Assembly: GCA_023150775.1 (NCBI GenBank)
Contig: JAKLKE010000021.1
Location: 250 to 35,588, forward strand
Direction of reading: 5' to 3'
Source: Myxococcota bacterium
GTDB taxonomy: Bacteria; Myxococcota_A; UBA796; CAJQPC01
Length of the DNA stretch: 35,339 nucleotides
The notes under the pieces were generated by a model. The model did no database searches. It was not told the DNA's origin and saw only the letters and a program-made list of their open reading frames with translations. Of this stretch, positions 3,981 through 31,310 are shown piece after piece. Both the position numbers and the translations under genes were made by a program. Position 1 is the first letter of the stretch. Each line of letters begins with the position of its first letter.

Positions 3981-5981
3981 ATGGCCCCCATGCGACTCTC
4001 GCCCCTCCTCGCCCTCACCTTGTTCTCTCTCGCCTGTCGCTCTGACGACAAAGACGTCGTGATCGACACGAACGTCGACACCGCCCCCCAGACCGTCGAT
4101 GAAGACGGCGACGGCTTCACCGGCGAAGAGGACTGCGACGACACCGACCCCGCCGTGAACGCCGGGGCGGCGGAGACCTGCGACGGCCTCGACAACGACT
4201 GTGACGGGGAGGCCGACGAGGACGCCACCGACGCCGCCACCTTCTACGCCGACGCCGACGGCGACGGCTTTGGTGTCGAGGCCTACACCGAGACCGCCTG
4301 CGAGGCCCCCGCCGGCTACGCCAGCGAGATCGGCGACTGTGATGACCAAGACGCGGCGATCTACCCCGGCGCCGTTGAGGACGACTGCCTCGACCCCACG
4401 GACTACAACTGTGACGGGTCTTCTGGCCTCACCGACGGCGACGGCGACGGCTTCGCGGCCTGCGAGGAGTGCGACGACACCAACCGCGCGGTGAACCCCT
4501 CGGCCACGGAGATCTGCGACGATCTCGACAACAACTGCGACGGTGAGGCCGACGTCGGCGCCGTAGACGCCGGCACCTGGTACCAAGACGCCGACACCGA
4601 CGGCTATGGAGACCTGGACTTCTCCGTAGAGTCCTGCGAGATCGACAACGACTGTAATGGATCCGTAGACGACGACGCCACCGACGCCGCCACCTACTAC
4701 AGCGACCGCGATCAAGACGGCTACGGCGACCCCGCCACGGGCAAGGCGAGCTGTGAGCAGCCCACGGGCACCGTAGACAACGACGGCGACTGCAACGACA
4801 AAGAGGAGCTCGCCTGGGACGGCGCCACCGAGGTCTGTGATGAGGTGGACAACAACTGCGACGGCAGCGTCGATGAGGGCCTCACCTCCACCTATTACCT
4901 CGACAGCGACGAGGACGGCTACGGCAACCCCAAACGGTCAGTGACCGCCTGCAGCGCCCCGGACGGCTACGTCGAGAACACCGACGACTGTGACGACAGC
5001 GAGGAGGCCGCCTATACCGGGGCGTCCGAGATCTGCGATGAGATCGACAACAACTGCGATGGCCGCGTCGATGAGGGCGTCGAGAGCACCTGGTACCTCG
5101 ACGTAGACGGCGACGGCTACGGCGGCAGCCGCTCCACCGACGCCTGCTCCCCGCCCACGAGCGACTACGTCGCCGCCGATGGTGACTGTGACGACGGCGA
5201 CACCGACGCCTACCCCGGCGCCACCTTGGGCTGTGACGGCGGCGACTACGACTGTGACGGCGACGTAGACAACGACGCCGACGGCGACGGCTACGCCGAC
5301 GCGACCTGCGGCGGCGACGACTGTGATGACAGCGACGCCGTGGTGCTGCCCGAGCTCGGCGGCGGCTGCGCCTTGGGCACGACCTGCCTCGACGTGCTCG
5401 CGAACGGCTACAGCGCCGGTGACGGCATCTACACCATCGACCCTGACGGCTTCGGCGTCGGCCTCGACCCCTTCGACGTCGAGTGTGACATGACCACGGA
5501 CGGCGGCGGCTGGACGGTGATCGAGTACGCCGCCGACCTCACCTTCCAGCAGCAGTTCACCGGCGGCGACCGCTACCGCTTCTTGGGCACCGACTTCACC
5601 CTCGACCTCTCCGACGCCCAGATCACCGCGATCCAGGCGCTCTCGACCGAGGGCAACCAGACCTACGTCGGCCTCTGTGAGCACGTCATCCACTACTACT
5701 ACAACGCCGGCGCCAGCTACGCCTACTCCTTCGGCTTCCGCTTCTTCGACGGCACTGAGACCCCTTACGGCATCTCTAGCTACAGCCCCTACGACATCAC
5801 CGTGACCGCCGACGGCTGCGCCGGGAACGGCGGCGAGGCCGGGGCGCTCTCCAAGGCCACGACGTTTGAGATCAACAGCGTGAGGGTGCCCGTGGTGAAC
5901 GTGCAGTGCAATGACTGTGGGGACACCACGCCGGAGAAGTTCGGCAGCCCCCTGATGTCGTACCCGGCTTACCTTCGTTAA
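3981..5981 (+). CDS. MopE-like metal-binding-repeat lipoprotein with C-terminal fibrinogen-like domain
   Basis: Lipobox-like FSLACRSDD; many repeats of DxDGDGY...DCDD...PGA.E.CD..DN(D/N)CDG..DE; C-terminal DGIYTIDPDGFGVGLDPFDVECDMTTDGGGWTV. In-frame alternative ATG at 3990. Confidence 0.85.
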   Translation: MAPMRLSPLLALTLFSLACRSDDKDVVIDTNVDTAPQTVDEDGDGFTGEEDCDDTDPAVNAGAAETCDGLDNDCDGEADEDATDAATFYADADGDGFGVEAYTETACEAPAGYASEIGDCDDQDAAIYPGAVEDDCLDPTDYNCDGSSGLTDGDGDGFAACEECDDTNRAVNPSATEICDDLDNNCDGEADVGAVDAGTWYQDADTDGYGDLDFSVESCEIDNDCNGSVDDDATDAATYYSDRDQDGYGDPATGKASCEQPTGTVDNDGDCNDKEELAWDGATEVCDEVDNNCDGSVDEGLTSTYYLDSDEDGYGNPKRSVTACSAPDGYVENTDDCDDSEEAAYTGASEICDEIDNNCDGRVDEGVESTWYLDVDGDGYGGSRSTDACSPPTSDYVAADGDCDDGDTDAYPGATLGCDGGDYDCDGDVDNDADGDGYADATCGGDDCDDSDAVVLPELGGGCALGTTCLDVLANGYSAGDGIYTIDPDGFGVGLDPFDVECDMTTDGGGWTVIEYAADLTFQQQFTGGDRYRFLGTDFTLDLSDAQITAIQALSTEGNQTYVGLCEHVIHYYYNAGASYAYSFGFRFFDGTETPYGISSYSPYDITVTADGCAGNGGEAGALSKATTFEINSVRVPVVNVQCNDCGDTTPEKFGSPLMSYPAYLR

Positions 5982-6047: not shown

Positions 6048-8060
6048 ATGGCCCCCGTGCTTCGCCCTGCTACGCTGCTCACGCCGCTCTTCGCCCTGTT
6101 TGTGCTCGCCTGTGACGACAGCAAAGACGCCACCACCGAGACGGGCATCTCGCTGGGCCAACACGACGAGGACGGCGACGGCTACCCCGATGAGGAGGAC
6201 TGCGACGACAACGACGCCGCGGTGAACCCCGGCGCTGAGGAACAATGTGACGGCCTCGACAACGACTGTGACGGGGAGGTAGACCAAGACGCCGCCGACG
6301 CGAGCGTCGTCTACGCCGATGAAGACGGCGACGGCTACGGCGCCGGTGCGCCTGTGCTGGCCTGCGAGCCGCCTGAAGGCTTCGTGACCCAAGACGGCGA
6401 CTGCGATGACACGGACTCGGCCTTCTTCCCCGGCGCCACGGAGACCGACTGCGCCGACCCCAACGACTACAACTGCGACGGCTCCGTAGGGTTTGAGGAC
6501 AACGACGCCGACGGCTTCCCGGCCTGCCTGGAGTGCGACGACTCCGCCCGCGCCGTGAACCCCCTGGCCGTCGAGATCTGTGATGAGATCGACAACGACT
6601 GCGACGGGCAGATCGACGCTGACGCCATCGACACGACCCGATACCACCAAGACGTAGACGGCGACGGCTTCGGCGACCCTGACTTTTTCACCGACACCTG
6701 CGCCGCGCCCGAGGGCTACACTGAAGACGACAACGACTGTGACGACAGCCGCGCGGCGGTGAACCCCGACGCTGAAGAGCTCTGTGATGAGCTGGACAAC
6801 GATTGTGACGGCGAGATCGACCCGCCGAGCGCTGTAGACGCCCAGACCTGGTACGGCGACGGCGACGGCGACGGCGTGGGGGTCAGCCGCCTCGCCGTGC
6901 GCGCCTGCGTGGCGCCGGACGGCTTCGTCGCCACCACTGAAGACTGTGACGATGGCGACGACTCGGCGTATCCCGGCGCCACGGAGGTCTGTGACGACGT
7001 AGACAACGACTGCGACGGCGAGACCGATGAGGGCGTGCAGACCGGCTGGTATGCCGATCTGGACGGTGACGGATACGGCCAAGACGCCACGGCGCTCATG
7101 GCCTGTGAGGCGCCGACGAGCCTCTACATCGCCACGGGCGGCGACTGTGACGACGGCGCGGACGACGTGAACCCCGGCGAGGCCCTGGGCTGTGACGGCC
7201 TCGACCACGACTGTGACGGGCTCATCGACAACGACGCCGACTTAGACGGCTACTCCGATCAGGCCTGCGGCGGCGACGACTGTGACGACAGCGACGGCGC
7301 CATCACCCCCGAGGTGGACGGGGCCTGCGCCTTGGGCGCCGACTGCCTCAGCATCCTCAACGCCGGGCGCTCCACCGGGGACGGGACCTATACGATTGAC
7401 CCCGATGGCTTCGGCGTCGGCGCCGACCCGATCGAGGTGGAGTGTGACATGAGCACCGATGGTGGGGGTTGGACGCAGCTCGCCGATGAGGACTACAGCG
7501 CCCAGAGCTGCCCCGGCGCCTGGGCGAAAGACGCCAGCTCTGGCTATTGCCATCGGGGCACCGCCCGAGGCAGCGCCGCCTCCGCCGAGTTTGACAGCCT
7601 CGGCGTCACCTACGGCGAGGTGCGCGGCGCGCTCACGGCGTATCAGTACGCGAGCATGAACGGCTTCTGGTACACGAGCGGCCGCACCGTCGAGGACTAT
7701 TATGTCGATGGCATCTCCATCACCCACGGCGTGAGCGGCGCCCGCACCCACATCTGGACCTACGCCGTGGGCATGACCTACAATGGGCGTTACGCCTACG
7801 ACTGCCCCGACCGTGGCGGCACCGCCGCGCCCAGCTTCGTCGGCGCCAACTACACCTGCGACACAGGCAACCTCAGCACGACCACCTGGGGCTATCAGTG
7901 GTACAGCACCCCGGCCTTCGCTGGGGACAGCTTCCAGCGCACGCTCCCATCCTCTACAGACGACGCCATCGAGCTGCGCCTGATCGCCGACGAGGAGTCC
8001 TCAGCCCACACCTACAGCGAAGACGTCGGGGTGAGCGCCGTCGAGCTGTGGGTGCGTTAG
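6048..8060 (+). CDS. MopE-like metal-binding-repeat lipoprotein with C-terminal fibrinogen-like domain (tandem paralogue)
   Basis: Lipobox-like FVLACDDSKD; same repeat architecture and same YTIDPDGFGVGADPIEVECDMSTDGGGWT motif; divergent C-terminus. Confidence 0.85.
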   Translation: MAPVLRPATLLTPLFALFVLACDDSKDATTETGISLGQHDEDGDGYPDEEDCDDNDAAVNPGAEEQCDGLDNDCDGEVDQDAADASVVYADEDGDGYGAGAPVLACEPPEGFVTQDGDCDDTDSAFFPGATETDCADPNDYNCDGSVGFEDNDADGFPACLECDDSARAVNPLAVEICDEIDNDCDGQIDADAIDTTRYHQDVDGDGFGDPDFFTDTCAAPEGYTEDDNDCDDSRAAVNPDAEELCDELDNDCDGEIDPPSAVDAQTWYGDGDGDGVGVSRLAVRACVAPDGFVATTEDCDDGDDSAYPGATEVCDDVDNDCDGETDEGVQTGWYADLDGDGYGQDATALMACEAPTSLYIATGGDCDDGADDVNPGEALGCDGLDHDCDGLIDNDADLDGYSDQACGGDDCDDSDGAITPEVDGACALGADCLSILNAGRSTGDGTYTIDPDGFGVGADPIEVECDMSTDGGGWTQLADEDYSAQSCPGAWAKDASSGYCHRGTARGSAASAEFDSLGVTYGEVRGALTAYQYASMNGFWYTSGRTVEDYYVDGISITHGVSGARTHIWTYAVGMTYNGRYAYDCPDRGGTAAPSFVGANYTCDTGNLSTTTWGYQWYSTPAFAGDSFQRTLPSSTDDAIELRLIADEESSAHTYSEDVGVSAVELWVR

Positions 8061-9856: not shown

Positions 9857-9883
9857 CGCCCCCGGTGGGTCTCACCGGGGGCG
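9857..9883 (-). terminator. Rho-independent terminator of precursor 1 (minus strand)
   Basis: Perfect 11-bp stem cgcccccggtg/caccgggggcg, 5-nt loop; on the minus strand followed by a T-rich tract (CTGTTATTTTGG). Confidence 0.75.
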
Positions 9884-9920: not shown

Positions 9921-10115
9921 TTACCACTTCTCGTCGTACTCGGTGCCGCCCTTGTAGGTGCCCATGGTGTCATCCCCATCCGAGGGGTACTTCAGGGTCT
10001 GGGGGGGCCAGGTGGTGCCGCCGCCGTCGGCGCCAGCGCGGACGTTGGTGTCGACCTGGGGGGCCTCGGTCTCGATGAAGCGGGCGAAGAACGGGACGCG
10101 GGTGGGCTTGCTCAT
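9921..10115 (-). CDS. Microviridin-type graspetide precursor peptide 1
   Basis: 64 aa MSKPTRVPFFARFIETEAPQVDTNVRAGADGGGTTWPPQTLKYPSDGDDTMGTYKGGTEYDEKW; PFFARF leader motif and TxKYPSD core motif of microviridins; AAGGAG RBS; nearly identical tandem copy downstream. Confidence 0.92.
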   Translation of the reverse strand: MSKPTRVPFFARFIETEAPQVDTNVRAGADGGGTTWPPQTLKYPSDGDDTMGTYKGGTEYDEKW

Positions 10116-10253
10116 GGTGGGCTCCTTTGGCGAGTCACACTGAGCCGCGGGCGTGCGCTCAGCTTGAACATCACCTTATCGGGCCTCAACACGTTTGTGA
10201 CCCTACGCCGACCCTTCACAGGCGCTCGATGTGGCGTGGTGATCCAAAATCAA

Positions 10254-10282
10254 ACGCCCCCGGTGGGGCTCACCAGGGGCGT
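10254..10282 (-). terminator. Rho-independent terminator of precursor 2 (minus strand)
   Basis: acgccccCggtg ... caccAggggcgt stem with one mismatch; minus-strand tail TTTGATTTTGG; paralogous to the 9857-9883 hairpin. Confidence 0.65.
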
Positions 10283-10315
10283 CTGTTTGTCCTCACCGCC
10301 GGGGCGGTCGGGGGC

Positions 10316-10510
10316 TTACCACTTCTCGTCGTACTCGGTGCCGCCCTTGAAGGTGCTGGCGGTGTCTTCGCCGTCGGAGGGGTACTTCATGGTGTAGGGG
10401 GGCCAGGTGGTGCCGCCGCCGTCAGCGCCAGCGCGGACGTTGGTGTCGATCGCGGGGGCCTCGGTCTCGATGAAGCGGGCGAAGAACGGGACGCGGGTGG
10501 ACTTGCTCAT
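10316..10510 (-). CDS. Microviridin-type graspetide precursor peptide 2
   Basis: 64 aa MSKSTRVPFFARFIETEAPAIDTNVRAGADGGGTTWPPYTMKYPSDGEDTASTFKGGTEYDEKW; same length, leader and core layout as precursor 1. Confidence 0.92.
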   Translation of the reverse strand: MSKSTRVPFFARFIETEAPAIDTNVRAGADGGGTTWPPYTMKYPSDGEDTASTFKGGTEYDEKW

Positions 10511-10639: not shown

Positions 10640-10840
10640 TCAGTCGTCGTGGTCGCCGCGGGGCTTGATCGTGACGCCCCGGCGCTCGATGAAGCCGCCC
10701 TCGTCGCTGTCCGACGGGTACTTCATCGTCTCGACCTTGACCTCGGGAAAGTTGATCCCCGCCCGCAGGTTCGTCGAGATCGGGGTCGGGTCCAGCTCGA
10801 CGAAGCGGGCGAAGAAGGGGACACGATCGTGGTGTTTCAT
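10640..10840 (-). CDS. Microviridin-type graspetide precursor peptide 3 (divergent)
   Basis: 66 aa MKHHDRVPFFARFVELDPTPISTNLRAGINFPEVKVETMKYPSDSDEGGFIERRGVTIKPRGDHDD; conserved RVPFFARF leader and TMKYPSDSDE core; divergent from the ATP-grasp gene. Confidence 0.92.
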   Translation of the reverse strand: MKHHDRVPFFARFVELDPTPISTNLRAGINFPEVKVETMKYPSDSDEGGFIERRGVTIKPRGDHDD

Positions 10841-11006
10841 GGTTTGTTCCTGGGCTCTGCGGAGGTTCTTGAGGCGAGGTGCCCCGGGCGCGGGGATCGT
10901 TAAGGGCCGTCCTGCCTCAACCCTTCACCCGCGCCTTCGCCTGCCCGACGCGCCCACCAGACCCCAACGAAGGGGATAATGGGGCGGACCACCCGTGGAG
11001 CCGCCG

Positions 11007-11981
11007 ATGCCTGCAGCCCTCCTCATCAGCAACACGACGGACCCCTGGACCGCCTGGGTCGCCCGGGCGATCACGGCCCGAGGCGGCACGCCGCTCACGC
11101 TGAACCTCGACCGTTACCCCGAGGCCTTCCAGCTCGGCCTCGGCGCGGACGGCGCCACGATCCGCATCGACGGGCGCCTCTGGCGTGAGCACGAGCTGAG
11201 CGCGGTCTGGGGTCGTCGCCCTGACCTGCCCCGGGCGGTCTCGATGGACCTCCCCGAGCTCACCCGCCGCTTTATGCTCGCCGAGTGTGAGCGCGCCGTG
11301 ATGGACTGGCTCGCCGCCCTGCATGTGCCCCACGTCGATGACAACTTCGTGGCCCGCGTCGCCGCGAACAAGCCCCGGCAGCTCCGCGACGCCCCCGGCT
11401 TCGGCTTCACCCTGCGCCCGACCTGGCTGGGCAACGACCCTGAGGAGGCCCGGGCCTTCATCCAGCGCCAGCCGGGCTCGGTCATCGCCAAGCCCTTCAC
11501 CCCGGCCTCCGCCCCCGATGGCGCGGTGTTCGCCAACCGGCTCTCCGCGGACGACATCGAGGCCATCGACACCCTCGACACCTGCCCGATGATCTTCCAG
11601 GGCGAGGTGGTCGGTCGGCGCTGGGAGGCCCGGGTCACCCTCATCGGCGACCGGGTGATCCCCGTGGCCCTGGACGCGGTGATCACCAAAGACAAGCCCG
11701 ACTTCCGCCGCACCTTCGACCAAGACTGGAAGCCGATCGAGCCCCCCCAGGCCATCGTGCGGAGCTGCATCAAGATGGCGGACGCCTACGGCCTGCAGTA
11801 CGCCGCGTATGACTTCATCGTCACCGAAGACGGCGAGTGGGTGTTCTTGGAGCTGAACCCCGTCGGCGAGTGCTTCTGGCTCGACGAGATCGGCCTCGAC
11901 GCCTCAGGCGCCATCGCCGAGCTGCTGTTGAACCCGGCGGAGCGGTGCCGGCCTGGGGCGAAGTGGGCGGGGATGCGGTGA
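11007..11981 (+). CDS. ATP-grasp ribosomal peptide maturase (MvdC/MvdD-like graspetide ligase)
   Basis: ATG at 11007 (MPAALLISNTTDPWTAWVARAITARGG...; GTG at 10995 possible); CPMIFQGEVVGRRWEARVTLIGDRVIPVAL and YDFIVTEDGEWVFLELNPVGECFWL ATP-grasp motifs; adjacent to three precursors. Confidence 0.88.
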   Translation: MPAALLISNTTDPWTAWVARAITARGGTPLTLNLDRYPEAFQLGLGADGATIRIDGRLWREHELSAVWGRRPDLPRAVSMDLPELTRRFMLAECERAVMDWLAALHVPHVDDNFVARVAANKPRQLRDAPGFGFTLRPTWLGNDPEEARAFIQRQPGSVIAKPFTPASAPDGAVFANRLSADDIEAIDTLDTCPMIFQGEVVGRRWEARVTLIGDRVIPVALDAVITKDKPDFRRTFDQDWKPIEPPQAIVRSCIKMADAYGLQYAAYDFIVTEDGEWVFLELNPVGECFWLDEIGLDASGAIAELLLNPAERCRPGAKWAGMR

Positions 11982-11982
11982 G

Positions 11983-13029
11983 CTAAAGGCGCAGCGCCAC
12001 CGCCCCCCAGGTGTTCGCCGCGCCGCCCGCGGTCAAGAGCGCCTGGGCGCCGTCCTTGGCCTGCCCCGAGCGCCGCGCGAGCGCCAAGGCCAGGGGCAGG
12101 TTGCAGGCGCCGAGGCTGCCGTGGTCGCTGAAGGTGTCGATGGTCACCGCGGCGTCGAGGCCTAAGCCCTCTCGCACCACCTCCTGCATCCACCCGGTCG
12201 GCTGGTGGCTCACGAAGAGCTCAACGTCGCCAGGTGACCAGACCGCTCGGTCTAGTGTCTCCGCGCAGGCCTGGATGAGCAGGTCGGCGTTCTGTAAGAG
12301 GTGCCGCGCCATGCCCGCCGGGTTCAGCACCCGCAGGCCGATAGGCCCCGAGCGCCACCACGGCGCCTCCTCGGCGGACACCACATAGTCGAGGTGCGCC
12401 GCGCCTTCGGTGCGGGTGACGCTGGCCACGACCCCCGCGCATGGGTCCGCCCGCACGACGACGGCCACGGCGCCGTCGCCGACCAAGGCCGAGAACGGCG
12501 AGGCTTTGGGCAACATCGCCGCGCGCTGGCTTGAGACGATGAGCAGGCCCGCCGGGCCCAGGCCGGTCATGAGCAGGCCCGCGGCGAGCTGGAGCTGGGT
12601 CAAGAAGCTCGCGTTCTCGGTGTCGATGTTGCTCACCAGGCACTCTCGGCGAAGGCCCAGCGCGCGGTGCGCGGCGAAGACGTTCTTGGGCACCAGGTGC
12701 CGATCGCCGCTGGAGTGCTGGAGCACAAAGCCGATCTCGTCAGCAGACACCCCGGCGTCTTCGATCGCGGCGGCGGCGGCGGCGATCTCTAACGTGTCGG
12801 TGCCCTGATCTGGCGGCATCACCGGCCTAGAGCGGCAGCCCTGAAACGGATCCTCCAGAGCGCGGAGCATCGCCACGTAGGCACGTCGCCCCGCGGGGGT
12901 GTCCGGCGCGAAGGACGGCGGCGGCGGTGGTCGCACCCAGCCCGCGAGGTCCTCTGCGGTCCAGGTCTCGGGGCCGTGGCGCGGCGGCAATGACAAGCCA
13001 AAGCCTAGGAGCTTCATCGGGAGCAGCAT
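11983..13029 (-). CDS. KAS III (FabH)-like thiolase-fold protein
   Basis: 348 aa; ...LEIAAAAAAIEDAGVSADEIGFVLQHSSGDRHLVP..., SALVGDGAVAVVV, VELFVSHQPTGWMQ, SDHGSLGACNLPLALALA resemble KAS III motifs. Confidence 0.75.
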   Translation of the reverse strand: MLLPMKLLGFGLSLPPRHGPETWTAEDLAGWVRPPPPPSFAPDTPAGRRAYVAMLRALEDPFQGCRSRPVMPPDQGTDTLEIAAAAAAIEDAGVSADEIGFVLQHSSGDRHLVPKNVFAAHRALGLRRECLVSNIDTENASFLTQLQLAAGLLMTGLGPAGLLIVSSQRAAMLPKASPFSALVGDGAVAVVVRADPCAGVVASVTRTEGAAHLDYVVSAEEAPWWRSGPIGLRVLNPAGMARHLLQNADLLIQACAETLDRAVWSPGDVELFVSHQPTGWMQEVVREGLGLDAAVTIDTFSDHGSLGACNLPLALALARRSGQAKDGAQALLTAGGAANTWGAVALRL

Positions 13030-13032
13030 GGC

Positions 13033-14715
13033 TCAACCTCTTCCAGTGAAGGTGCCGAGGGTCTGATCACGCCCGGACTGGGCGAAGGCGGCGGACGGGT
13101 CGACGCGCAGATCGACGACGACCGGGCGGTCACCCCCGATCAGCGCAGGGCTGAGGGCCTCAAGGTCGGCCACGGTGTTCACCCGCAGCCCCACCGCGCC
13201 GCAGGACTCGGCCACACGCACGAAGTCTACGGCGGGGCCTGGCGCGCCGAGGGGCCGTTTGTACACCCGGCGAAACCCGGCCTCGACCATGTTCATCACG
13301 CCGTCGTTGAGCACGACAAACACGACGCCGAGGCGCTCCTGAACGCAGGTCGTGAGGTCCATGCCCGACATCCGAAAGCCCCAGTCGCCGCAGATGACGA
13401 CCACCGGGCGCCCTGGCGTGGCGAGCTTGAGGCCGAGCCCCGCGCCGACGCCCGAGCCCATCGAGCCGAGGCCCAGCGCGGCGTAGAAGCCGTCCGACGC
13501 GTCGATGTGCAGGTGGTGCAGGGTGAACAGCAGGTGCTCGCCGATGTCGCAGGCGTAGCGGGTGTCTTTGGGGAGCGCCGCCTGGAGCGCCGCGAGGGCC
13601 GTGGCGGGGTGCAGCAGGCCACGCGGCTCCTCCGTCGGCGTCTCGCGGCGCTCGACCCCAAAGACCTGGGGCGGGGCCTGGGGCAGCCCTTCGGTGAGCA
13701 ACGGCGCGAGCTCCTCCAGCGCGCCGACGAGGCCCAGCTCGACGGCGCGGTTACGGCCCAGGCGCCCGAGGTCCACGTCGAGCTGCACGAGGCTGGCGTT
13801 GGGGGCGAGGCTCGGGGCCCAGCCGTTCGTGCCGGTCTCGGAGAAGCCGCAGCCCAAGGCGAGGAGCAGGTCTACGTCTTCGCCGAGGGCCCGGGCCGCG
13901 CTCGTGTGACCGCCGTAGCCGCAGATGCCGACGGCGAGGGGGTGTGACTCGGGGAAGAGGCCTTTGCCTTTCGCGGTGGTGGCGACAGGCCACTGCAGCC
14001 GCTCGGCCAGGGCGAGGGCGGCCGCGGCGCCTGCCCCAGCGCGGGCCCCAGCGCCGATGACGATCGCCCCTCGGCGCGCGGCGACGAGGCTGGCCCGGGC
14101 CTCCGCCACGAGCGCGTCGTTCTCGCGCCAAACGCTCCGAAGCGGCCGACCGAGCCGGGGAAGGCGCACAGGCTGGTTCACCACGTCCAGGGGCAGGGTG
14201 AGCACGACCGGCCCGGCGACGGGGCCGCGGGCGGCGTCGAGCGCCTCGCTCAACAGGGCGCAGGCGTTGTCGGGCCGGGTGATCATCGCCGCGTAGCGGG
14301 TGACGCTGCGGCACATGCTGAGCAGGTCGAGGCCGAAGGCGCTGCCCTCTTGCAGCGCCCCCCGTCCATGCTGGCTGCGGGCGACCTCCCCCACGAGCAC
14401 GACGATCGGCAGGCCCTCGGCGTAGGCCGACGCGATCCCCGTCAGCGCGTTCGTGAGGCCAGGGCCCGAGGTCACGAGCACGCAGGCGAGCTCCCCGCTC
14501 AGGCCAAACGCCGCCGCCGCGAAGGCCGCGTTGCTCTCCTGGGCGCTGTAGACGATCCGCGCCTCGGGCCGCTCCAGGAGCGCGTCGTAGATCGGCGAGA
14601 TCGCCCCGCCGGGCATCCCGATGAAGGTGCGCACCCCTTGAGTGATGAGCACATCGACGAGCTGATCCGCGACACGCCGGGCGGGCGCCGCGACGACCTC
14701 TGCTGGCTGAATCAT
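13033..14715 (-). CDS. Thiamine-diphosphate-dependent enzyme, acetolactate-synthase-like
   Basis: Start MIQPAEVVAAPARRVADQLVDVLITQGVRTFIGMPGGAISPIYDALL...; AAGGAG upstream; QESNAAFAAAAFG, SGPGLTNALTGIASAYAEGLPIVVLVGE, GDWGFRMSGMDLTT...VVLNDG. Confidence 0.85.
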   Translation of the reverse strand: MIQPAEVVAAPARRVADQLVDVLITQGVRTFIGMPGGAISPIYDALLERPEARIVYSAQESNAAFAAAAFGLSGELACVLVTSGPGLTNALTGIASAYAEGLPIVVLVGEVARSQHGRGALQEGSAFGLDLLSMCRSVTRYAAMITRPDNACALLSEALDAARGPVAGPVVLTLPLDVVNQPVRLPRLGRPLRSVWRENDALVAEARASLVAARRGAIVIGAGARAGAGAAAALALAERLQWPVATTAKGKGLFPESHPLAVGICGYGGHTSAARALGEDVDLLLALGCGFSETGTNGWAPSLAPNASLVQLDVDLGRLGRNRAVELGLVGALEELAPLLTEGLPQAPPQVFGVERRETPTEEPRGLLHPATALAALQAALPKDTRYACDIGEHLLFTLHHLHIDASDGFYAALGLGSMGSGVGAGLGLKLATPGRPVVVICGDWGFRMSGMDLTTCVQERLGVVFVVLNDGVMNMVEAGFRRVYKRPLGAPGPAVDFVRVAESCGAVGLRVNTVADLEALSPALIGGDRPVVVDLRVDPSAAFAQSGRDQTLGTFTGRG

Positions 14716-14784
14716 CTTGACTCCTTGGGACCACGCCGCATCGATCCGGGAGCGCCGAGCCAAACGCTCGACGTCCCCGCCCCC

Positions 14785-14797
14785 GTCACGGCGTGAC
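14785..14797. promoter_or_regulatory. 13-nt palindrome gtcacg-g-cgtgac upstream of the ThDP/KAS III operon (candidate operator)
   Basis: Perfect palindrome in the 5' region of the minus-strand operon next to an AT-rich patch (atgtgtagtaaacatg...ttaattatc). Confidence 0.4.
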
Positions 14798-14975
14798 AAT
14801 GTGTAGTAAACATGCTTGGAACCTTAATTATCAGGCGTTTATGGCCTGCCACGACATCCTGTCTTCGCTGCTGAGCGCCTCTGTACGGCGCTCGGCCTTA
14901 GCATAGCACCGCCTGTCTCCGCTGAGGCCGCCCCGAGGCTCCACGCCCCCCGCCCCCCAAGCTCCACCCCTCAAC

Positions 14976-30308: not shown

Positions 30309-31310
30309 ATGGACGTGCTCGCCGTCACCCACACCCAAGAGCCCAGCGCGGCCTGGGTCGCCCAAGCCATCGCCAGGCGCGGTCACCGCCTGATCCGCCT
30401 CGACACCGACCTCTTCCCCAACGCGCCGATGCTGCGCCGCACCCAGCGCGGGACGGAGCTCCTCTCGGCGATTCAGGTGGACGGCGTGTGGGTGCCGCTG
30501 GACGCCAGCACGTCGATCTGGTGGCGGCGGGTGAACCTCTCCTCCAAGATCGATCCCGCCATGGGCCAAGACGCCCACGCCGCGGCGGTCGAGGAGTCGC
30601 GGGTGACGATCCGGGGCCTCGCCAGCGCCCACACCGGCCTCGTCGTCGATCGCCCCCACCACATCCGCCTCGTCGGCGACAAGGCCCTGCAGCTCGGCAT
30701 CGCCGCCCAGGTGGGCCTCGACGTGCTGCCCACCCTCGTGACCAACGACCCTGAGTCCGCCCGGGCGTTTTTCCATGAGCACAACGGCCAGGTGATCACC
30801 AAGATGGAGCACGCCTTCGCGCTCAAGACGGAGGACGGCACCGGCGCCGTGCACACCTCCGTGGTCAAAGAGGAGGATCTCGACGGCCTGGACGGCCTCA
30901 CCGCCTGCCCGATGATCTTCCAGCCCCGGGTACACACCCGCCGGGAGTACCGCATCACCATCGTCGGTCAGCAGGTGATGGTGGGCGCCTTGGACTACAG
31001 CTCCGGGGAGTACGGCACCGACTGGCGCCTCGCCAGCCTGCGCGACAAGGGGGTGGTGCACGCCTGGAAGAAGGCCAGCCTGCCGGACTCTGTGTGCCAG
31101 GCGATGCTGCGCATGATGGACCGCCTCGGCCTCAACTACGGCGCCGCCGACATTCTGGAGGACGAGGCGGGCCGCCTGTGGTTCTTGGAGGTCAACCCCG
31201 CCGGGGAGTGGGCCTGGATGAACCACGCCGGGCTGCCCATCATCGACGCCCTCGCCGACCTGCTCACCGGGGCCGCGCCCGCCCGAGACTGCGTCGTCCC
31301 CAGGGTCTAG
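30309..31310 (+). CDS. ATP-grasp ribosomal peptide maturase, MvdD/MdnC-like
   Basis: 333 aa; MDVLAVTHTQEPSAAWVAQAIARRGHRLIRLDTDLFPN, VTIRGLASAHTGLVVDRPHHIRLVGDKALQLGIAAQVGLDVLPTLVTNDPESARAF, CPMIFQPRVHTRREYRITIVGQQVMVGAL, LGLNYGAADILEDEAGRLWFLEVNPAGEWAW. Confidence 0.88.
   Translation: MDVLAVTHTQEPSAAWVAQAIARRGHRLIRLDTDLFPNAPMLRRTQRGTELLSAIQVDGVWVPLDASTSIWWRRVNLSSKIDPAMGQDAHAAAVEESRVTIRGLASAHTGLVVDRPHHIRLVGDKALQLGIAAQVGLDVLPTLVTNDPESARAFFHEHNGQVITKMEHAFALKTEDGTGAVHTSVVKEEDLDGLDGLTACPMIFQPRVHTRREYRITIVGQQVMVGALDYSSGEYGTDWRLASLRDKGVVHAWKKASLPDSVCQAMLRMMDRLGLNYGAADILEDEAGRLWFLEVNPAGEWAWMNHAGLPIIDALADLLTGAAPARDCVVPRV

Follow-up and report, generated by a model that had tools for sequence, protein, structure and literature searches.

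Microviridin-type precursors of a Myxococcota bacterium in which a canonical core is followed by a divergent second core unit

The Pro-Ser-Asp segment is treated as a hallmark of microviridin cores. Counted from the core threonine, microviridin connectivity consists of T1-D7 and S6-E9 esters and a K3-E/D10 amide (PMC9826346). Precursors with more than one such core are already known, as class II microviridins have multi-core precursors with up to five cores (PMC13039773). One of these, AMdnA from Anabaena PCC 7120, carries, besides three cores, a degenerate one called the quasi core (TGKLRDE), and the enzyme AMdnC lactonises several of the cores and, it is thought, the quasi core as well (PMC5934393). 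The AMdnA quasi core is a precedent for a degenerate core that can be partly lactonised (PMC5934393). Class III precursors, the chitinoviridins, have a long mature region ahead of the ring unit, and only their C-terminus is microviridin-like (PMC13039773).

Here we describe small precursors from a metagenome-type assembly of a Myxococcota bacterium, in which a normal microviridin ring site is followed by an altered copy. They lie in a stretch of 35,339 nucleotides, which we call the window, with the following features:

9921-10115, minus strand: precursor P1, 64 aa, leader RVPFFARF, two cores (PF12559 E 1.2e-7; NF033738 3.1e-9)
9969-9998, minus strand: P1 core 1, TLKYPSDGDD, canonical (from sequence)
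9930-9959, minus strand: P1 divergent core 2, TYKGGTEYDE (ring-pattern shuffle p 1.2e-4)
9857-9883, minus strand: terminator-like hairpin 3' of P1 (resembles an intrinsic terminator)
10316-10510, minus strand: precursor P2, 64 aa, layout as in P1 (PF12559 8.4e-9; NF033738 9.4e-9)
10364-10393, minus strand: P2 core 1, TMKYPSDGED (from sequence)
10325-10354, minus strand: P2 divergent core 2, TFKGGTEYDE (ring-pattern shuffle p 1.7e-4)
10251-10285, minus strand: terminator-like hairpin 3' of P2 (resembles an intrinsic terminator)
10640-10840, minus strand: precursor P3, 66 aa, with a different linker and its own degenerate second core (PF12559 8.7e-5; NF033738 3.7e-7)
10700-10729, minus strand: P3 core 1, TMKYPSDSDE (from sequence)
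10643-10672, minus strand: P3 degenerate core 2, TIKPRGDHDD, whose position 6 is not Ser/Thr (shuffle p 1.8e-4; TLKPTGDRDE in the sister species)

The open reading frame at 9921-10115 encodes MSKPTRVPFFARFIETEAPQVDTNVRAGADGGGTTWPPQTLKYPSDGDDTMGTYKGGTEYDEKW. All three products score above the cut-offs of PF12559 (Pfam) and NF033738 (NCBIfam, microviridin/marinostatin), all three carry the leader helix motif PFFARF in the form RVPFFARF, and each has a TxKxPSDx[DE][DE] core as its core 1. A GGAG Shine-Dalgarno-like site precedes P1 and P2, and the core serine codons in this genome are TCN rather than AGY. The first-pass annotation had located two cores in P1 at 9930-9998, residues 40-62 of the 64-residue frame on the minus strand, and the same layout in P2, with sequences and coordinates that proved exact for both precursors; it overlooked the degenerate second core of P3. 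Elsewhere in the window, two tandem plus-strand genes (3981-5981 and 6048-8060), whose order is kept in the sister genome, encode proteins with DGDGDG/CDxxDNxCDG repeats that are putatively calcium-binding and lipoprotein-like.

Like the class II precursors of Anabaena (AMdnA) and Nostoc sp. UHCC 0870 (NZ_CP091915.1), P1-P3 combine a PFFARF leader with several T-x-K-x-x-S/T-D/E-x-D/E-D/E units, and the source genome, as in class II, encodes ATP-grasp ligases, HlyD and C39 proteins (PMC13039773). The four-core Nostoc precursor advances in three 13-residue steps (TKKYPSDKED-IAV-TLKFPSDRED-GVV-...), which is the 10+3 layout of P1 and P2, whose cores are likewise 13 residues apart from start to start. 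What sets P1-P3 apart from class II is a second unit without Pro-Ser-Asp (KGGT[ED]) or without Ser/Thr (KPxGD), together with the divergence of the adjoining ligase, L1; moreover, the ligase, HlyD and C39 kinds form one cluster at the Nostoc plasmid locus, whereas the ligases of our source genome are scattered over loci. The AMdnA quasi core resembles the second unit of P1-P3 in being a degenerate core within a multi-core precursor that keeps Thr, Lys and acids, but it is a shorter unit, sits between cores and is believed to carry a single lactone, whereas the unit in P1-P3 is C-terminal and full length and, in P1 and P2, has six ring-type residues. In class III, as in P1-P3, the ring unit comes after a long mature region, although the C-terminus, microviridin-like there, is the divergent unit here. 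Two-core precursors also occur in two Myxococcota genomes of another family (G058 and G214; locus L017 8852-9043, locus L018 7315-7515 and 7775-7975). They have the phylum, the leader and the AG motif in common with P1-P3 and also carry two cores, 12 residues apart; in contrast to P1-P3, both cores are canonical (TQKAPSDFDE and TMKYPSD[DSN]DE) and three ligases sit in one cluster. The first-pass suggestion of a two-core architecture is partly supported by a motif present in 5/5 P1-type precursors from two species; the architecture itself is not new, being known from class II (PMC13039773). Yet another type of Myxococcota precursor was seen on the minus strand near 9.3-9.5 kb of three loci (L088, L090 and L091), with a TPLFA[HY]LL leader and conserved cysteines around a microviridin core (YHCLDSECTKKYPSDxDDC..YKPxCDY).

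Whether the second unit is a core at all was judged against a ring pattern fixed in advance from microviridin connectivity, in a strict form, T.K..[ST][DE].[DE][DE], and a relaxed form, T.K...[DE].[DE][DE]. The strict pattern arose in 0.012-0.019% of shuffles of the 15-residue P1-type tails (p 1.2e-4 to 1.9e-4), so that the retention of T-x-K-x-x-[ST]-[DE]-x-[DE]-[DE] noted at first pass is non-random, at p ~1e-4. The P3 tail, GGFIERRGVTIKPRGDHDD, matches the relaxed pattern (shuffle p 1.8e-4), as does its counterpart in the sister species, GGLVERVRVTLKPTGDRDE (p 3.6e-4). P1 and P2 keep all six ring-type positions in the second unit and P3 five of the six, and none of them keeps Pro-Ser-Asp; as Gly replaces Ser/Thr in P3, at most one ester and one amide are possible there. 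The ring pattern occurs exactly twice in every one of the seven precursors of the genus, each carrying one canonical and one degenerate core. In BLOSUM62 terms, the tail resembles core 1 significantly in P3 (p 0.0015 and 1.5e-4) but not in P1 and P2 (p 0.07 and 0.17). Core 2 of P1 and P2 has therefore retained the ring residues and little else, and what argues for it is the placing of these residues, the 13-residue spacing and the comparable second unit of P3.

The sister species (G171) has three P1-type precursors and one P3-type precursor (locus L016 9202-9402), the latter with TLKPTGDRDE as its second unit. TFKGGT[ED]YDEKW is kept in 3/3 of its P1-type copies, one of which has Asp at acid position 59 (TDYDE), the canonical residue at that place. 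Across the two species, none of the five P1-type copies has lost either hydroxyl, the Lys or any of the three acids of core 2. This conservation is weak evidence, because the copies are close, partly homogenised and drawn from two species only: they are 84-91% identical to P1 over the full length, a codon comparison found nearly no synonymous change in the tail and likewise in the leader, and core-1 haplotypes are common to both species (P1 with sister copy c), which suggests concerted evolution. A codon-level proof of selection on core 2 of the P1-type copies was dropped, as synonymous changes were too few. The same closeness of the copies and the scarcity of synonymous tail changes, together with the non-significant BLOSUM likeness of P1 and P2 to core 1, would suit a simpler account, in which TxKGGTEYDEKW is a charged tail for solubility, transport or degradation and its ring-like pattern is a coincidence preserved by recent duplication. 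We consider this account very unlikely, as it is at odds with the shuffle p of ~1e-4, with the independent match of P3 to the pattern and with a 13-residue spacing like that of a class II precursor.

The P3 pair is far more diverged than the P1-type copies, and in it the core-2 ring-type positions are kept by class in 5/5 cases versus 8/15 of the other tail positions (Fisher p 0.08), a suggestive hint, though not proof, of selection on core 2. What such a unit would be kept for is where the main rival to ring formation comes in, namely a quasi-core or follower role, which has this standing because AMdnA, the nearest precedent, has a quasi core of this kind. The tail would then derive from a core repeat and be kept for ligase engagement or export, either unmodified or with at most one inefficient lactone, as in AMdnA, whose quasi core TGKLRDE is believed to form one lactone and whose engineered substrates are not processed without it (PMC5934393). 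Loss of Pro-Ser-Asp in P1 and P2 and of Ser/Thr in P3 is also the direction expected from decay toward a quasi core. Relaxed decay, however, would not be expected to spare both hydroxyls, the Lys and the three acids in 5/5 P1-type copies, nor does it sit easily with a P3 in which neighbouring residues change around retained amide and first-ester positions. We regard a quasi-core role as a serious possibility, albeit a somewhat unlikely one.

Beyond the two species, the second unit was not encountered again. While TxKGGTExDE, whose conservation had been put forward as a test of the second core, recurs in the three sister copies, once with Asp in place of the first Glu, no leader-joined TxKGGT[ED]xDE was found outside the genus, either in a pattern-based scan of GTDB r220 (~85,000 species) or by PF12559/NF033738 in genomes of the Myxococcota (379), the order (63) and the class (71). 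The class-level search (71 genomes) revealed no further genome with precursors, viral contigs gave no precursor match and the plasmid search gave one match, the Nostoc sp. UHCC 0870 record. Other members of the order (G049, G210 and G262) have a single canonical core and a short tail. In the sets searched, the KGGT[ED] and KPxGD core forms appear new and restricted to this genus. We found no description of KGGT[ED]xDE or KPxGDxD[DE] units in the open-access papers examined, which does not prove their absence. At first pass the second core had not been recognised as a described graspetide motif; a degenerate core as such is known from AMdnA (PMC5934393).

Maturation would require removal of the leader, for which the precursors share a candidate site:

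10032-10055, minus strand: predicted leader cleavage motif VDTNVRAG in P1 (equivalents at 10427-10450 in P2 and 10757-10780 in P3)

The general form, [VIL]xTx[VL][KR]AG, lies ahead of the core region in 13/13 precursors compared and looks like a double-glycine-type site, with hydrophobic residues at -4 and -7. Cleavage at this predicted site would leave 36 residues in P1 and P2 or 38 in P3, both units included. One could instead read the KGG of core 2 as a second double-glycine site, cut by a C39 peptidase, which would cost the peptide residues 58-64 and with them a second ring; a C39 peptidase is indeed encoded, position -4 is Phe/Tyr and graspetide precursors often contain double-glycine motifs (PMC8939145). 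Since the second core of P3 has no GG, and the motif upstream of core 1 is a better candidate that is universal in these precursors, we find this reading highly improbable.

Two ligase genes lie in the window:

10995-11981, plus strand: ligase L1, a divergent ATP-grasp enzyme of the graspetide kind, transcribed away from the precursors (ATG 11007 the probable start; PF21068 2.7e-9)
30309-31310, plus strand: ligase L2, graspetide-type ATP-grasp, ~19 kb from the precursors (PF21068 3.9e-16; TIGR04184 272 bits, below the equivalog cut-off)

The best solved-structure match of L1 is MdnC (5ig9, E 2.2e-34), and leader-bound MdnC is also the structure nearest to its AlphaFold2 model (pLDDT 88.5; TM 0.83). 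In an alignment of 24 ligases the invariant columns include K162, D269 and E282 of L1, with N284 nearly invariant; AMdnC cannot do without a Lys and an Asp (PMC5934393) that, judging by the alignment, appear to correspond to conserved L1 positions. In the tree, L1 forms its own long branch, drawn beside PsnB with low supports, and supports are similarly low for L2, so that neither can be assigned to the ester or amide type. A third ligase, L3, belongs to the MdnB (amide) clade (UFBoot 100) and is encoded on a 3.7 kb contig (C462 of the source genome, locus L022, 1059-3695), followed by HlyD and a C39 peptidase, with no precursor. This contig amounts to half of a microviridin export cassette that may serve P1-P3, and its C39 peptidase is the only one detected in the genome. 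Leader and core patterns revealed no precursor beside L2 (within the window) or L3. L1, L2 and L3 make up the three graspetide-type ligases of the genome, none of which reaches the TIGR04184 equivalog cut-off. The sister species also has all three; its L2 lies at 30417-31388 of contig C353, and the linkage of L1 and L2 on a shared strand is kept, with L2 15-19 kb from the precursor locus in both species. No C39 peptidase was found in the sister genome, whose L3 contig is only 4 kb long.

A fourth, weak ATP-grasp match in the source genome (contig C444, 56725-57597, locus L004; 29% identity, one in-frame TGA) may represent a pseudogene, or else a fortuitous alignment spanning the end of a gene. 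The idea that ligase number tracks core number gave no clean rule, with four ligases and a single core in G049 and three ligases and two cores in G058 and G214. Next to L1, on the minus strand at 11983-14799, are genes for KAS III-like and ALS-like TPP enzymes; these do not form a conserved part of the cluster, as the sister species has an SDR-adenylate cyclase-like gene beside L1.

Taken together, we favour, with moderate confidence, the view that P1-P3 are class II-type precursors with a canonical core 1 and a core 2 that has decayed or been re-tuned and is nonetheless ringed, the trimmed product being a two-headed inhibitor. In this scheme, the PFFARF leader would dock on microviridin-type ATP-grasp ligases, core 1 would receive T1-D7 and S6-D/E9 esters and a K3-D/E10 amide, and core 2 would receive at least one further ring from the same or a second ligase. 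Core 2 of P1 and P2 could hold two esters (T53-E59 and T58-D61) and one amide (K55-E62), that of P3 one ester (T57-D63) and one amide (K59-D66). Cleavage of the leader after [KR]AG, plausibly by the C39 peptidase encoded on the other contig beside the MdnB-type ligase and HlyD, would then release a double-headed inhibitor of serine proteases, ~36-38 residues long. Position 2 of a microviridin unit is the residue entering the protease S1 pocket (Arg5 in microviridin J, PMC7823629); it is Leu/Met in core 1, Phe/Tyr in P1-type core 2 and Ile/Leu in P3-type core 2 (Ile in P3 itself), and such conservative variation would fit a two-headed inhibitor. Two points speak against ring formation on core 2 of P1 and P2: it lacks the KYPSD segment, on which MdnC-type enzymes are said to depend (PMC7823629), and Glu at position 7 would enlarge the first ring by one carbon. 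Ring formation on core 2, the roles of the ligases, the cleavage site and the protease target are all inferred from sequence, with which three, five or six rings would be compatible.

A bolder version, in which a specialised L1 builds a full tricyclic cage on core 2 without Pro-Ser-Asp, giving a 36-residue two-headed inhibitor with different specificities and a bicyclic unit in P3, seems to us unlikely.

Our analysis bears on how microviridins are defined and sought. If KGGT[ED]xDE or KPxGDxDE can be cyclised by a ligase, the core motif as now accepted, like the patterns used in genome mining, would need to be widened, and microviridin cages on new sequences could be developed from the divergent ligase L1. 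Should the unit turn out to be only a quasi core, it would add a C-terminal case to that of AMdnA and help to test why AMdnA depends on its own.
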